DNA of 64,000 bases. It comes from Arthrobacter sp. QXT-31. GTDB taxonomy: Bacteria; Actinomycetota; Actinomycetes; Actinomycetales; Micrococcaceae. Location of the stretch: positions 2,914,001-2,978,000 of the forward strand of contig NZ_CP019304.1 of assembly GCF_001969265.1 (NCBI RefSeq), given 5' to 3'. Below are positions 25,146-30,320 of the stretch, one piece after another. Both the position numbers and the translations under genes were made by a program. Below the pieces are notes generated by a model, which saw nothing but the letters and a program-made list of their open reading frames with translations, did not search any database and had not been told where the DNA came from. Numbering within the stretch: the stretch's first letter is position 1; each line of letters starts with the position of its first letter.

Positions 25146-25739
25146 CTACGAGGCCTGGCTTTCGAACCGTTCCCGTGTGAGGAACACGAGCTGTGCTTCC
25201 TTCTCCGCGAGTTGCACCGTCGGCCCCAGTTCGAAACCGCAGCCCTCAAAGCGCCGGATCGCTTTGGCATTCCGGGCATCCGGCTCGGCAACGACGCGGT
25301 CCTTGGCAGGGTCCGCCAGCAGGAAGCGGGTCAGCGCCGCGACAAGCGTGGGCGTGAAGTTCCGCACCGGCCGGTCGGCGGGAGCCAGGAGCAGATGCAT
25401 GCCCGTGTCTTCGGCGCGGGCCTCGTACGCTTCGCTGACCGGGTCCTGGAGGGGCTCGTAGGTCTGGAAGATGCCCGCCGGGTTCCCGTCCACGCACATC
25501 AGGTACCCGTGATGCGTGTCCAGGCTGTCGAGGAACTGGTAAATGTCCCGGACCTCATCCCGGCTCAAACTGAGCATGCCCCAGAACCGTGCACGCTCCT
25601 CCCGCACCCAGCTGTAAAGCAGGTCCGCGTCGGACTCCGGTTCGATGGTGACAAGCCGGAACCGTCCCAGCCCCTGCAGCTCTTCCTCGTAAACGGTGGG
25701 CCTGGCGGAAAGCGCGAGGTTGGTGCGGGTGCCGTTCAT
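25146..25739 (-). CDS. siderophore-type N-acyltransferase (IucB/MbtK-like GNAT)
   Basis: 197 residues. ERARFWGMLSLSRDEVRDIYQFLDS, YEPLQDPVSEAYEARAEDTGMHLLL and VVAEPDARNAKAIRRFEGCGF are the landmarks of the acyltransferase domain that acylates N6-hydroxylysine or related amines in hydroxamate siderophore synthesis. ATG 25739 overlaps the stop of the acylase gene (ATGA). The shared promoter carries an iron box, which fits a siderophore role. No hydroxylase or siderophore synthetase is visible nearby, so the pathway would be completed elsewhere or the substrate may differ. Confidence 0.9.
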   Translation of the reverse strand: MNGTRTNLALSARPTVYEEELQGLGRFRLVTIEPESDADLLYSWVREERARFWGMLSLSRDEVRDIYQFLDSLDTHHGYLMCVDGNPAGIFQTYEPLQDPVSEAYEARAEDTGMHLLLAPADRPVRNFTPTLVAALTRFLLADPAKDRVVAEPDARNAKAIRRFEGCGFELGPTVQLAEKEAQLVFLTRERFESQAS

Positions 25740-27901
25740 GTGGTCTCCTTCGTGAGCTGTTCCCAGTCCGTAATGACAGGGATGAGTTCCCCGGCGGCCC
25801 AGAGGGGCAGCTGGCTGGCGAAATGCTGGTCTTGTGGAAGTCCGGAGGCGCCGAAAGGCACCACCCACCGGCTGTTCGCCCGGTCCGCGATGTCCCAGAT
25901 GTAGCGCGCCACGGGTCCCCGGAAGCACCGGTCGCTGGCGCCCGGCAGGCTTTCGGTGGACAGGACGCAGGCCGTGTCTCCGGACAGGCGGGTGGGCGGG
26001 ACGCCGGGCACAGCCCCGCCGCCGCCCGCTTTTTCTACGGCACTGCCGTGTTCCAGGAGGGCATGGAGCGGCAGGGCCGTGTGGCGGTCACCCCAGGTGC
26101 CGGCCGACGCCGCGGCGGCGGTTTCCTCCAGTGCGGTTTCCTCCAGTGCGGTTTCCTCCAGGGCGCGGCGGGCCGCCGCGTCGACGTCCAGGCCCAGGGC
26201 CCTACCGTTGGTGAGGAGCGACTCCAGGGCGAATCCTGTGCGCGCCACCGGATGCAGCCACGGTGCAAACAGGGCAGGGTAGCCGTGCGGGTCGGCCAGC
26301 CGGAGCAACGCGGGTGAGTTCGCCAGGTCAAGGACCAGCGCGGACCGCCACGCTGCAAAAAATGCGGCGTCACCGCTGTCCGCGTCCATATGGCCGGACC
26401 ACTGCAGCAGCCGATCGCGGAGTTTGAGGGCGGCGTCGGACAGCGGAGCAGAACCTTCGAGCAGCGCCCGGAATACGGGCCACGAACCGAGCCACGTGTC
26501 CGTGTGGATGTCCTGCATCGTTGCTGCGTCCAGGCCGGGGCCATGTTCTTCCAGCAGTTGCCGGATGCGGCGGGCGCGATGGGCCGGGGCAAACTCGAGC
26601 CCCAGCCGGTCGCCGCCGCCGGCCTCGCGGTCGTTGGCGTGGACGGCCAGGCCCGGAACAGGGGACGCCGGAAGGTCCTCCCAGTCGCCCGTCCACTGGT
26701 GTTCTGCCGACCATCCGGGCACGGGGCGGACGCGGTTGTCCCGGTTCCTGGCCGGGACCTTTCCGGCCACAAGCTGGCGCACCACACCGCCGGAATCGGC
26801 CACGAGGACACAGTTCACCGGCTCCACCCAGGCACCCAGCGCCTGTTCGACGTCGTCCGCCGAACGGCTCCGCAGGAGCGGCAGCAGCGCCTGGAACCCA
26901 AGGGATTCCGCCGCCCGGGCGGGTGTCCGCAAACTCAGCGCCCCGCCGTCGGGCCCGCCCAAAATCACCGGACCGCGGTCTGTTTCAATGACTTCAACAG
27001 TCTCGGCCGCGCCGCCGCGCACCAGGATCGCTTCCTCGTGGTGGGCCCGGACGGGGCTGTCGCCGTCGGGTCCGAGCGCCAGAAGGACGTTCCCGCTGCG
27101 CCGCAGCTGTTCCTGGTACAGGTCCTGGTAGTCCGCCATGGCATTGGTGATGGCCCAGGCAACCGTTCCGGCGTGGCCAAAGTGGGGCAGCCCGGGGACG
27201 CCCGGAAAGGCGAGTCCGACGACGTCGAACTCCGGGCACGCCAGCCGCACCTGCTGGTACACGCCCGGGAGTTCCAGGAGCCGGTGCGGATCGCCGGCGA
27301 TAAGCGGGGAACCGGTGGCTGTCAGCCCGCCGGCCGCGGCCCAGGCGTTGCTGCCCGCCCAGACCGGCGCCTCGATGCTGAACAGCGCCACGGCGTCGGG
27401 GCCGAGGGTTTTGGCAATGTGTTCCCGCCAGAGCTTGTTGGGGAAAGTGCCGAAAAGGATGTGGTGCACCATGAACACCCCCAGGGGCGTCCACGGCTGC
27501 CAGGCCGCAGGAGCGGTGCCGGCGTTCCGGAACTCCGGCGCGTCGCGGAGCTTGGAGTCGAGGGCGTGGTTCACCCCGTCCACGTATGCGGTGCACCAGC
27601 GCTGTGTCTCGGCGTCGAGGTTTTGGAAACAGCGGCGGGCGGTGTCGTCCAGGCGCGCACGGCGGGCGAAGCGGTCCCACTCGATCCCGTCGGCGCCCAG
27701 GTGCTCGGCGGTCCTGCCTTCTGCGCGCCACCGCTCCATCTCGATTTGCCAGGAGCGGTCCGTGGCCGCATTCTTGCCCTGGAGGAAAGCAAGTTCGTCT
27801 GCCGAGTCCGCCCGCAGATGCGGGATGCCCCACGGGTCGCGGAATGTCTCAGCAGACATCGGCGCGGGCATCTTGCGGGCATTCCGGGTGTGCAGGCACA
27901 C
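25736..27901 (-). CDS. penicillin acylase (S45) family Ntn-hydrolase, iron-regulated
   Basis: 721 residues from GTG 27901 (GGAGAG upstream); ATG 27871 is an alternative start. The autocatalytic site is WAGSNAWAAAGG with Ser184 as the future N-terminal nucleophile of the beta chain, followed by SPLIAGDPH, as in penicillin G acylase, PvdQ and AHL acylases. An alpha chain of about 180 residues and a spacer precede it. No signal peptide is obvious, so it may be cytoplasmic. It is co-translated with a siderophore-type acyltransferase behind an iron box, so removal of an acyl group from a siderophore or its precursor is a reasonable proposal; cleavage of other amides is possible. Confidence 0.9.
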   Translation of the reverse strand: MCLHTRNARKMPAPMSAETFRDPWGIPHLRADSADELAFLQGKNAATDRSWQIEMERWRAEGRTAEHLGADGIEWDRFARRARLDDTARRCFQNLDAETQRWCTAYVDGVNHALDSKLRDAPEFRNAGTAPAAWQPWTPLGVFMVHHILFGTFPNKLWREHIAKTLGPDAVALFSIEAPVWAGSNAWAAAGGLTATGSPLIAGDPHRLLELPGVYQQVRLACPEFDVVGLAFPGVPGLPHFGHAGTVAWAITNAMADYQDLYQEQLRRSGNVLLALGPDGDSPVRAHHEEAILVRGGAAETVEVIETDRGPVILGGPDGGALSLRTPARAAESLGFQALLPLLRSRSADDVEQALGAWVEPVNCVLVADSGGVVRQLVAGKVPARNRDNRVRPVPGWSAEHQWTGDWEDLPASPVPGLAVHANDREAGGGDRLGLEFAPAHRARRIRQLLEEHGPGLDAATMQDIHTDTWLGSWPVFRALLEGSAPLSDAALKLRDRLLQWSGHMDADSGDAAFFAAWRSALVLDLANSPALLRLADPHGYPALFAPWLHPVARTGFALESLLTNGRALGLDVDAAARRALEETALEETALEETAAAASAGTWGDRHTALPLHALLEHGSAVEKAGGGGAVPGVPPTRLSGDTACVLSTESLPGASDRCFRGPVARYIWDIADRANSRWVVPFGASGLPQDQHFASQLPLWAAGELIPVITDWEQLTKETT
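26121..26165. repeat. 15-bp in-frame tandem repeat in acylase gene
   Basis: The unit GTTTCCTCCAGTGCG is repeated nearly three times in a row (26121, 26136, 26151). On the minus strand it encodes three copies of LEETA in the acylase beta chain. Being a multiple of three it keeps the frame; copy number could vary between strains by slippage. Confidence 0.85.
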
Positions 27902-27917
27902 GACTCTCCAACTCTTG

Positions 27918-27936
27918 TTAGGTAAGGCTTAGCTAA
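27918..27936. promoter_or_regulatory. DtxR/IdeR/DmdR-type iron box
   Basis: TTAGGTAAGGCTTAGCTAA matches the 19-bp actinobacterial iron-box consensus (TTAGGTTAGGCTAACCTAA) at 16 of 19 positions and is itself a dyad. It lies 17 bases upstream of the acylase start on the minus strand, where a repressor loaded with Fe(II) would block transcription of the acylase and acyltransferase genes. Confidence 0.85.
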
Positions 27937-28010: not shown

Positions 28011-30194
28011 TTACCGCCCCCAGCTTTCGGACCGTTCCGCCCGGCGGTGACCGGCCTGCTGGACGAGCTCGATCATCCAGGGACGGTGCCCCTGATGGAA
28101 TGTCATCCCTTCGGGAAGTCCTTGGACGGAGGGGACGGAACCGGCGATGTCGATGGTGATGCGGCCGCCGCCCAGCGGGGCGTTGGTGATGTGCAGGTCC
28201 CCGAAGGACTTCGGGAGGACAGGGTCCATCCAGACGCCGCCAGCGGAGACGACGGGGTCGTAGCGCATCAGGCTCGTCACCATCTGGATCGGCGCGGTGG
28301 CCGCCCAGGCCTGGGGCGAGCACGCCGTCGGATACGGCACAGGCGCGGCGAGCTGCTCCCGGCTGAAGCCGCAGAACAGCTCAGGGAGCCGGCCGTCTGA
28401 GTACTCGGCCGCATCCATCATGCCGGTGGCGATCCGCTGCGCCTCTTCCACGAAGCCATAGCGGAGGAGTCCGGCGGCGACGATGGCGTTGTCGTGCGGC
28501 CAGACTGATCCGTTGTGGTAACTGGCGGGATTGTAGGCGCCCATGTCGCTGGCGAGGGTGCGCACGCCCCAGCCGCTGAACATTTCCGGCGACATCAGGT
28601 GTTCGGCCACCATGGGGGCCTTGTCCTGGTCGATCAATCCCTGCAGCAGGCAGTGCCCCATGTTCGAAGCACAGGCGTCCACCTGCCTTTTCTTGCCGTC
28701 CAGGGCAATGGCGTAGTACCCACGCTCGGGAATCCAGAATTGCTCGTTGAACTGTTTCTTCAGCCGGTCCGCGCGGTCGGTGAGCTCATTTCCCAGAGCC
28801 GTGTCTCCGGCGTCGTACGCCAGCCATGCCCGCGAAAGGTAGGCGACGTACACATAAGCCTGGACCTCGCACAGTGCGATCGGCGGCTCGGCCAGGGTGC
28901 CGTCGGCGAAGTTGATCCCATCCCAGGAGTCCTTCCAGCCTTGATTGATGAGCCCCTGGTCATTGAGGCGTTCGTACTCGACGAAGCCGTCGCCGTCGCC
29001 GTCCCTGTCCCCGTATTTCGTGATCCACTCGAGCGCGCGGTCCGCATGGGGCAGCAGGGCGGCGATCGTGTCGGCGGCGAAGCCCCAGCGGCTGACCGCT
29101 CCGAGCACCATCAGGAACAGGGGCGTGGCGTCGACGCTGCCGTAGTAGGCCGACTTGCCGCCCAAGGACAGCCCGCTGGAAACGTCGAGCCGGACCTCGT
29201 GGAGGATCTTGCCCGGCTCCTCCTCCGTCATGGGGTCCACCACAGTTCCCTGGCGGTCCGCAAGGGTCTGCAGCGTGCCCAGCGCCAGCGACGGATCAAC
29301 CGGCATCGCCATCACTGAAGCCCACAGCGAGTCCCGGCCGAACAGGGTCATGAACCAGGGTGCTCCGGCGGCTACTACGACGCGTTCAGGATGCTGGGGA
29401 TCCTCGATCCGCAGGGCGCCGAGGTCGTCATAGCTGCGGCGCAGGGTCCGCTCAACCGACCGGTTTCCCATCTGCAGGACCGGAATCTTCGCCACCCACT
29501 CCCGACGGCGGCGGTCCCTGGGCGACAATCCATCCCCCTCAGCGTGGACGAACGCCGTCGCCGAATCGGTTCCCCCGGTGCTGGGCAGCACGGTCAGGAC
29601 GGTGCTCCAGTGTCCGTGCGCCGGGACGGAGGCCCGGTACCTTACCGCGTCCGGGGAAACCTCCGCGCCCGGGGCCTGGACCACCACGCCTTTGCGGATG
29701 TCCTGCCAGACGGCCCGGATGGTGAGCGCGGCGCCGTAGGCCTGCCGCGTTTCGTCCCAGCGCCGCTGGATCCGGGCCTCTTTCACTTCGAAGAGGTCAG
29801 CGAAGTCCGCGCCGATCTTCAGCGCGATTTCGCAATCGGCCGGTTCGGGGGAGTAGTTCCGGACGGTAACCTGCTCCTGGATGCCGGCTCCCACTTCCCG
29901 CAGGCGTTCCACGATCAGCGGGCTGTCGGCGTAGCCGTCCGAGCGGGGAACCCGACCGACGAACAGGGCCCGGTACGGCTCCTTCGTCTCGGCCGCCAGC
30001 GGCTCCAGCGCCTGGCCGTCGACCGTCAGGTTCCAGCCGGCGAGGATGCGGGCGTCCTGCACAAAGAGGCCATGCGGATGATCGGCGCTGATGTCCCCGT
30101 TCGGCAAGGAAATACAGAAGGATGATCCCTCGACCAGGGTGACCGTCCCGGCCCCTAAGGGGCCCGCCGCCGTATCAGCATTCCACCCAGCCAT
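28011..30194 (-). CDS. amylo-alpha-1,6-glucosidase / glycogen-debranching-type protein
   Basis: 727 residues. The N-terminal domain (about 1-300) is of the glycogen debranching N-terminal type (GSSFCISLPNGDISADHPHGLFVQDARIL), and the C-terminal part is an alpha/alpha toroid glycoside hydrolase (PWFMTLFGRDSLWASVMAMPVD, then GWKDSWDGINFADG, then NGSVWPHDNAIVAAGL). ATG 30194 has GGAGGTGG upstream; GTG 30203 lies inside that site. It probably hydrolyses alpha-glucosidic links in glycogen-like or other oligosaccharides in the cytoplasm. No glycogen genes are adjacent. Confidence 0.88.
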   Translation of the reverse strand: MAGWNADTAAGPLGAGTVTLVEGSSFCISLPNGDISADHPHGLFVQDARILAGWNLTVDGQALEPLAAETKEPYRALFVGRVPRSDGYADSPLIVERLREVGAGIQEQVTVRNYSPEPADCEIALKIGADFADLFEVKEARIQRRWDETRQAYGAALTIRAVWQDIRKGVVVQAPGAEVSPDAVRYRASVPAHGHWSTVLTVLPSTGGTDSATAFVHAEGDGLSPRDRRRREWVAKIPVLQMGNRSVERTLRRSYDDLGALRIEDPQHPERVVVAAGAPWFMTLFGRDSLWASVMAMPVDPSLALGTLQTLADRQGTVVDPMTEEEPGKILHEVRLDVSSGLSLGGKSAYYGSVDATPLFLMVLGAVSRWGFAADTIAALLPHADRALEWITKYGDRDGDGDGFVEYERLNDQGLINQGWKDSWDGINFADGTLAEPPIALCEVQAYVYVAYLSRAWLAYDAGDTALGNELTDRADRLKKQFNEQFWIPERGYYAIALDGKKRQVDACASNMGHCLLQGLIDQDKAPMVAEHLMSPEMFSGWGVRTLASDMGAYNPASYHNGSVWPHDNAIVAAGLLRYGFVEEAQRIATGMMDAAEYSDGRLPELFCGFSREQLAAPVPYPTACSPQAWAATAPIQMVTSLMRYDPVVSAGGVWMDPVLPKSFGDLHITNAPLGGGRITIDIAGSVPSVQGLPEGMTFHQGHRPWMIELVQQAGHRRAERSESWGR

Positions 30195-30320
30195 CGCGGC
30201 CACCTCCGAGTAAGTAGCAACAGTGCAACTAGCAACAGCGTGCAGTTCGACGCTACGCTTGCTGGCCCGGCCTAGCTAGGCCTTGCTTTTCGGGGTCGAA
30301 CGACGACGGCGGGTGGAGGC

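Follow-up and report, generated by a model that had tools for sequence, protein, structure and literature searches.

Introduction

Iron overload is treated with desferrioxamine B. The ratio of desferrioxamine B to desferrioxamine E has been tied only recently to two genes, desG and desH, which in Streptomyces coelicolor form with desJ a locus (desJGH, SCO4048-4050) that is controlled by an iron box and DmdR1 and is detached from desABCD (PMC12161575, PLoS Biol 2025). Here we consider an operon of Arthrobacter sp. QXT-31 in which an iron box precedes an acylase gene, desG, and an acyltransferase gene, desH. The operon lies in a 64,000-nucleotide stretch of the chromosome (NZ_CP019304.1, positions 2,914,001 to 2,978,000), called the window below. 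Judged from its sequence, the window pair appears to be mainly a further example of a kind described in Streptomyces in 2025.

According to the main text of that report, desG knockouts of S. coelicolor make about 1000-fold less desferrioxamine B and desH knockouts about 16-fold less, and desferrioxamine E goes up. The model offered there is that DesG de-succinylates N-hydroxy-N-succinylcadaverine (HSC), and that DesH then acetylates the product. Of 46 sequenced producers, the same text credits 36 with homologues of desG and desH; it records fusions of the two genes in S. atratus and in two strains of Micrococcus, and places previously seen desG genes either within the desferrioxamine cluster or in a locus of their own under DmdR1 control. 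Arthrobacter is not mentioned in the main text, and a limited literature search brought no paper on desGH in Arthrobacter to our notice. A first-pass annotation of the window, made from the sequence alone, had taken the detached layout for a new build; as the S. coelicolor desJGH locus attests in the main text of PMC12161575, that layout was already in print in 2025.

Results

The box in the window exceeds chance expectation. Its sequence, TTAGGTAAGGCTTAGCTAA, agrees with the pattern TTAGGTTAGGCTAACCTAA at 16 of 19 positions (three mismatches), and no other site in the window comes within three mismatches of the pattern. None of 100 shuffles of the window contained such a site; the whole 5.04 Mb genome has four distinct ones, against none for the reversed control pattern. 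The 19-bp dyad that the first-pass annotation reported ahead of an N-terminal nucleophile (Ntn) hydrolase gene is therefore confirmed. On an independent scoring matrix, built from the desA boxes of other families and with a maximum of 36.6, the window box scores 25.7. The gap to desG is 16 bases, counted from the GTG at 27901. That GTG is the likelier start, with a GGAG-type ribosome site read by eye; an ATG at 27859, giving 707 residues, is possible. The ATGA overlap by which the acylase and acyltransferase genes would be co-translated was also found as first described. Of the other three genomic boxes, one precedes an iron-type ABC-transporter gene, one precedes another ABC substrate-binding gene, and one stands about 1 kb ahead of a bacterioferritin-like gene; these labels were assigned by eye from translations.

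Features of the desGH operon in the window
Feature	Position	Strand	Evidence
desH, GNAT acyltransferase, 197 aa, ATGA overlap with desG	25146..25739	-	PF13523 (Acetyltransf_8), 160 bits
desG, penicillin-amidase-family Ntn hydrolase, 721 aa from GTG	25736..27901	-	PF01804, 501 bits
Arg207 codon CGG, beta-chain residue 24, DPHR motif, candidate succinyl-carboxylate binder	27281..27283	-	alignment
Ser184 codon AGC, self-processing nucleophile, beta-chain residue 1	27350..27352	-	alignment
Iron box (DtxR/IdeR/DmdR1-type operator)	27918..27936	.	consensus match, shuffles, matrix score

The gene pair and the place of its box, which the annotation had proposed seeking in other actinobacterial genomes, are conserved. 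Among 80 related loci from named genomes, the best 80 of 578 confirmed, 67 carry a box with at most four mismatches within 200 bp upstream of desG, as compared to 0.31% of 15,264 control windows, which were drawn from the same 80 loci and some of which probably contain desA boxes. DesH adjoins DesG or is fused to it in 74 of the 80, the fused form accounting for eight. For the Micrococcaceae the count of such boxes is 21 of 28 loci; the desG site is weaker in L015, L016, L019, L020 and L036, and is absent in L021 and L024. In several loci of Micromonospora, Catellatospora, Asanoa and Streptomyces, desG has desABCD genes as neighbours. Two matches look split, as if by a frame change: desH in L017:7088-7677 and desG in G185:C1:3293013-3295065.

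What siderophore would the pair act on? The QXT-31 chromosome has its own desABCD about 1.1 Mb from the window genes. Its desD, the sole IucA_IucC match of the genome, adjoins desC, with desB and desA upstream of desC; desC and desD were found by family search, and desA and desB were named by eye and from matches beside desCD elsewhere. With desABCD in the same genome, the tailored siderophore is likely a desferrioxamine made by the same cell. The annotation had noted no adjacent synthetase or hydroxylase. That observation stands for the neighbourhood, and does not extend to the genome, as desABCD is elsewhere in the chromosome.

Genomes with a DesG match nearly always have DesD. In a family set of 245 genomes, DesG is found in 22, DesD in 97, and both in all 22; in a phylum set of 396 genomes, the corresponding numbers are 27, 42 and 25. 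The QXT-31 genome is in both sets; pooled, they comprise 48 distinct genomes with a DesG match, and 46 of these have DesD. In the two exceptions, G253 and G279, the DesG-like protein is 35-40% identical, and the stretches retrieved around it (8.5 and 6 kb) contain neither DesH nor a box; we take these proteins to be other acylases. One might think that the pair recycles foreign siderophores, as the annotation suggested, or re-tailors them. Since 46 of the 48 DesG genomes have DesD, and the exceptions lack a nearby DesH or box, this reading, together with its variant in which a fatty chain is stripped in the manner of PvdQ, is disfavoured, and we consider it very improbable. As for position, no more than 12.5 kb separates desG from desD in 8 of the 22 family genomes and 10 of the 25 phylum genomes, and in the other 14 and 15 the two genes are apart or on different contigs, so that detachment is common and not special to the window.

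DesH is one of two PF13523 matches in the genome, the other being DesC. A tree was built of 33 proteins, DesH and DesC, chosen from 86 extracted; in it the window protein falls in the DesH group with support of 100/100, apart from its own genome's DesC. Its best solved match by sequence is DfoC, and it fails the NCBIfam cut-offs for AAC(6') aminoglycoside acetyltransferases (best 43.4 bits, against 400). Does DesH necessarily transfer acetyl? The DesH family has varied donors, and the main text of PMC12161575 relates that producers commonly make forms with acetyl, fatty-acyl or aryl caps, and that phenylacetyl-capped forms were initially ascribed to DesG. A pair that adds a long-chain or aryl acyl group, giving an acylated or arylated desferrioxamine, is thus conceivable. 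According to the same text, however, the S. coelicolor pair acts on desferrioxamine B, which is acetyl-capped, and no acyl-CoA supply gene was seen among the three neighbours of the window pair that were searched. On balance we think a non-acetyl cap unlikely.

DesG is the only PF01804 product in the genome at E 0.001. Ser184, in the 721-residue numbering, is the GSN nucleophile; it aligns with residue 1 of the solved beta chains and is invariant in a 26-row alignment, so that the self-processing serine is intact, as the annotation held. Arg207, at beta 24, is likewise invariant across the 26 rows. The closest solved enzymes of named activity are a glutaryl-7-aminocephalosporanic acid (glutaryl-7-ACA) acylase, 4hsr, and a D-succinylase, 7eby, whose names denote glutaryl and succinyl amides, and DesG shares the DPHR motif with these and with 35sz. 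Arg207 might bind the succinyl carboxylate. The best PDB match of DesG by sequence is 35sz, which is not among the fold rows. Distant DesG relatives with DPHR occur at L111 and L112, in genomes without DesD and with no nearby DesH or box. At 26118-26165, desG has an in-frame 15-bp tandem repeat of 3.2 copies that encodes repeated LEETA; the extra LEETA units are not present in the aligned relatives.

PvdQ, which removes the fatty chain from a pyoverdine precursor in Pseudomonas, had served the annotation as a guide to the substrate. PvdQ has a signal peptide and is a periplasmic enzyme; the N-terminus of DesG has no hydrophobic stretch, judged by eye alone. With 24.4 bits on the NCBIfam PvdQ model, against a cut-off of 950, and with Arg207 rather than Phe at beta 24, DesG is unlike the PvdQ/acyl-homoserine lactone (AHL) acylases, and PvdQ is not among the 43 sequence matches of DesG up to E 0.001, at that sensitivity. 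PvdQ differs further in its ligands: beside the beta 24 Phe named in the title of 4bth, the titles of 3l94 and 2wyb describe myristate- and dodecanoate-bound structures. The low PvdQ score and the activities of the closest solved enzymes do not support PvdQ as that guide.

Could DesG be a beta-lactam or peptide acylase that merely happens to lie behind an iron box? The family is named for penicillin amidase, and the closest solved enzyme of named activity is a glutaryl-7-ACA acylase. Against this are the conserved box, the acyltransferase partner and the clusters with desABCD in other genomes, and we find the idea scarcely credible. The glutaryl-7-ACA acylase (4hsr/4hst) and the D-succinylase resemble DesG in the Ntn acylase fold, in Ser at beta 1 and in DPHR, and by name act on dicarboxylic acyl amides. 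They differ in that 4hsr/4hst, of which 4hsr is engineered according to its title, are named for cephalosporin derivatives, and 7eby, according to PMC11241749, for acting on D-amino acids; neither is a siderophore enzyme.

The comparison with S. coelicolor was made by way of an S. violaceoruber locus, L065. The DesG and DesH of L065 match the window pair by alignment and tree, its DesH on a long branch within the DesH group, and its DesG is 55% identical to the window protein. L065 fits the published residues: DesG W61 is exact, DesH W43 and Q91 are both shifted by 3, and DesJ W55 and Q68 are both shifted by 11.

How do the boxes of desA and desG compare? On the matrix above, the desG boxes of the 28 Micrococcaceae loci have a median score of 27.2 (range -10.5 to 29.7, two below zero); for 12 Arthrobacter-type genomes, the best sites in the desA regions retrieved have a median of 8.95, with 6.7 in the QXT-31 genome itself. 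The region before desA has a conserved, degenerate iron-box-like site in all 12 (L008:14612-14630 and L117-L127), doubled in several, and each of the 12 has CTAAGTAAGG at a distance of 14 to 115 bases upstream of where DesA similarity begins. One could imagine that the Arthrobacter-type core and cap-exchange genes are under two tiers of iron control, a proposal to which we give a low probability. If it were true, severe starvation would add DesGH late and move the product from desferrioxamine E to B, so that the choice of product would read out the iron level. Alternatively, the doubled desA sites may bind well. Because doubled half-sites may do so, a low matrix score is not equal to weak binding, and we regard the contrast in box quality as a lead, not a result.

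The pair is flanked by a glycogen-debranching-type gene and a flavin reductase gene; desJ, which probably does not define the kind, is not beside it. A search of the 80 loci with three neighbouring proteins gave a single match, debranching-type, in L018. In those genus genomes other than QXT-31 in which both outer neighbours have matches, these are separated by over 30 kb or lie on different contigs. We infer that the box, desG and desH move as one unit. A plasmid search found 18 records with identities of 60-80%, of which 17 are from Streptomyces. The debranching-type gene (window 28011-30203) matches five other places in the genome, and one of the five has a TAG inside it.

Discussion

The best reading of the operon is that it encodes an acyl-exchange pair for desferrioxamine. 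We think it highly probable that this is a desGH operon for an iron-controlled acyl swap on HSC, most likely succinyl for acetyl, which favours desferrioxamine B. During iron starvation an iron-dependent repressor would leave the box, and desG and desH would be made together. DesG, a cytoplasmic enzyme on this reading, would split into two chains by self-cleavage at Ser184 and hydrolyse succinyl off the HSC made by desABC 1.1 Mb away. DesH would then re-acylate the freed N-hydroxycadaverine, most likely with acetyl-CoA, to N-hydroxy-N-acetylcadaverine (HAC). Finally, DesD would join one HAC to two HSC, so that output would shift from the cyclic desferrioxamine E to the linear, capped desferrioxamine B. 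The gene family, the box, the desABCD genes of the same genome and the co-occurrence are observations on this and related genomes. The mutant effects are those described for S. coelicolor in the main text of PMC12161575, and for QXT-31 itself we infer the repressor, the iron response, the self-cleavage, the cell location, the substrate, the acyl donor and the product. What the first-pass annotation suggested, a module that swaps acyl groups to tailor a hydroxamate siderophore and stands detached from the core cluster, is supported.

Several points weigh on the other side. De-succinylation is a proposal of the authors of PMC12161575. Our comparison with SCO4049 and SCO4050 went by way of L065; the L065 lengths (DesG 723, DesH 212, DesJ 250) are unlike those implied by the main text of the paper (about 782, 206 and 241), which makes L065 related to the S. 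coelicolor locus but not identical with it. Thirteen of the 80 related loci are without a box of at most four mismatches within 200 bp of desG. Five (L021, L049, L052, L072 and L087) have desG with no neighbouring desH, and a sixth in which no desH was seen, L070, ends at a contig edge. The family co-occurrence has P = 3e-10 when kinship is ignored and P = 0.019 by genus, and the genome sets were scored for DesG and DesD. DPHR is present also in the two DesG-like proteins of genomes without DesD. Within the genus, finally, DesG occurs in 6 of 18 genomes, QXT-31 included, and a DesD match in 13 (one of them partial), so that the pair is dispensable.

What does the Arthrobacter case add? It extends desGH, the iron box and the detached layout to Arthrobacter relatives, and the co-occurrence test points to a dependence of desG on desABCD. 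Arg207 is a single residue that bears on the proposed de-succinylation, and that core and tailoring genes differ in the quality of their boxes is raised as a testable point.

We note that clusters in which desGH accompany desABCD, and fused DesGH proteins, found in Micromonospora, Catellatospora, some Streptomyces and some genomes of the family to which QXT-31 belongs, have the same protein families and in many cases the same box. They differ in that the pair is beside the core, or is one open frame, whereas the window pair stands alone, about 1.1 Mb off. The S. coelicolor desJGH locus, as described in the main text of PMC12161575, resembles the window pair in that it too has an iron box and has genes for a penicillin amidase and a DesC-like acyltransferase in one operon detached from desABCD. 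There, however, desJ is beside the pair, while the window pair has no neighbouring desJ and belongs to an Arthrobacter-type family.
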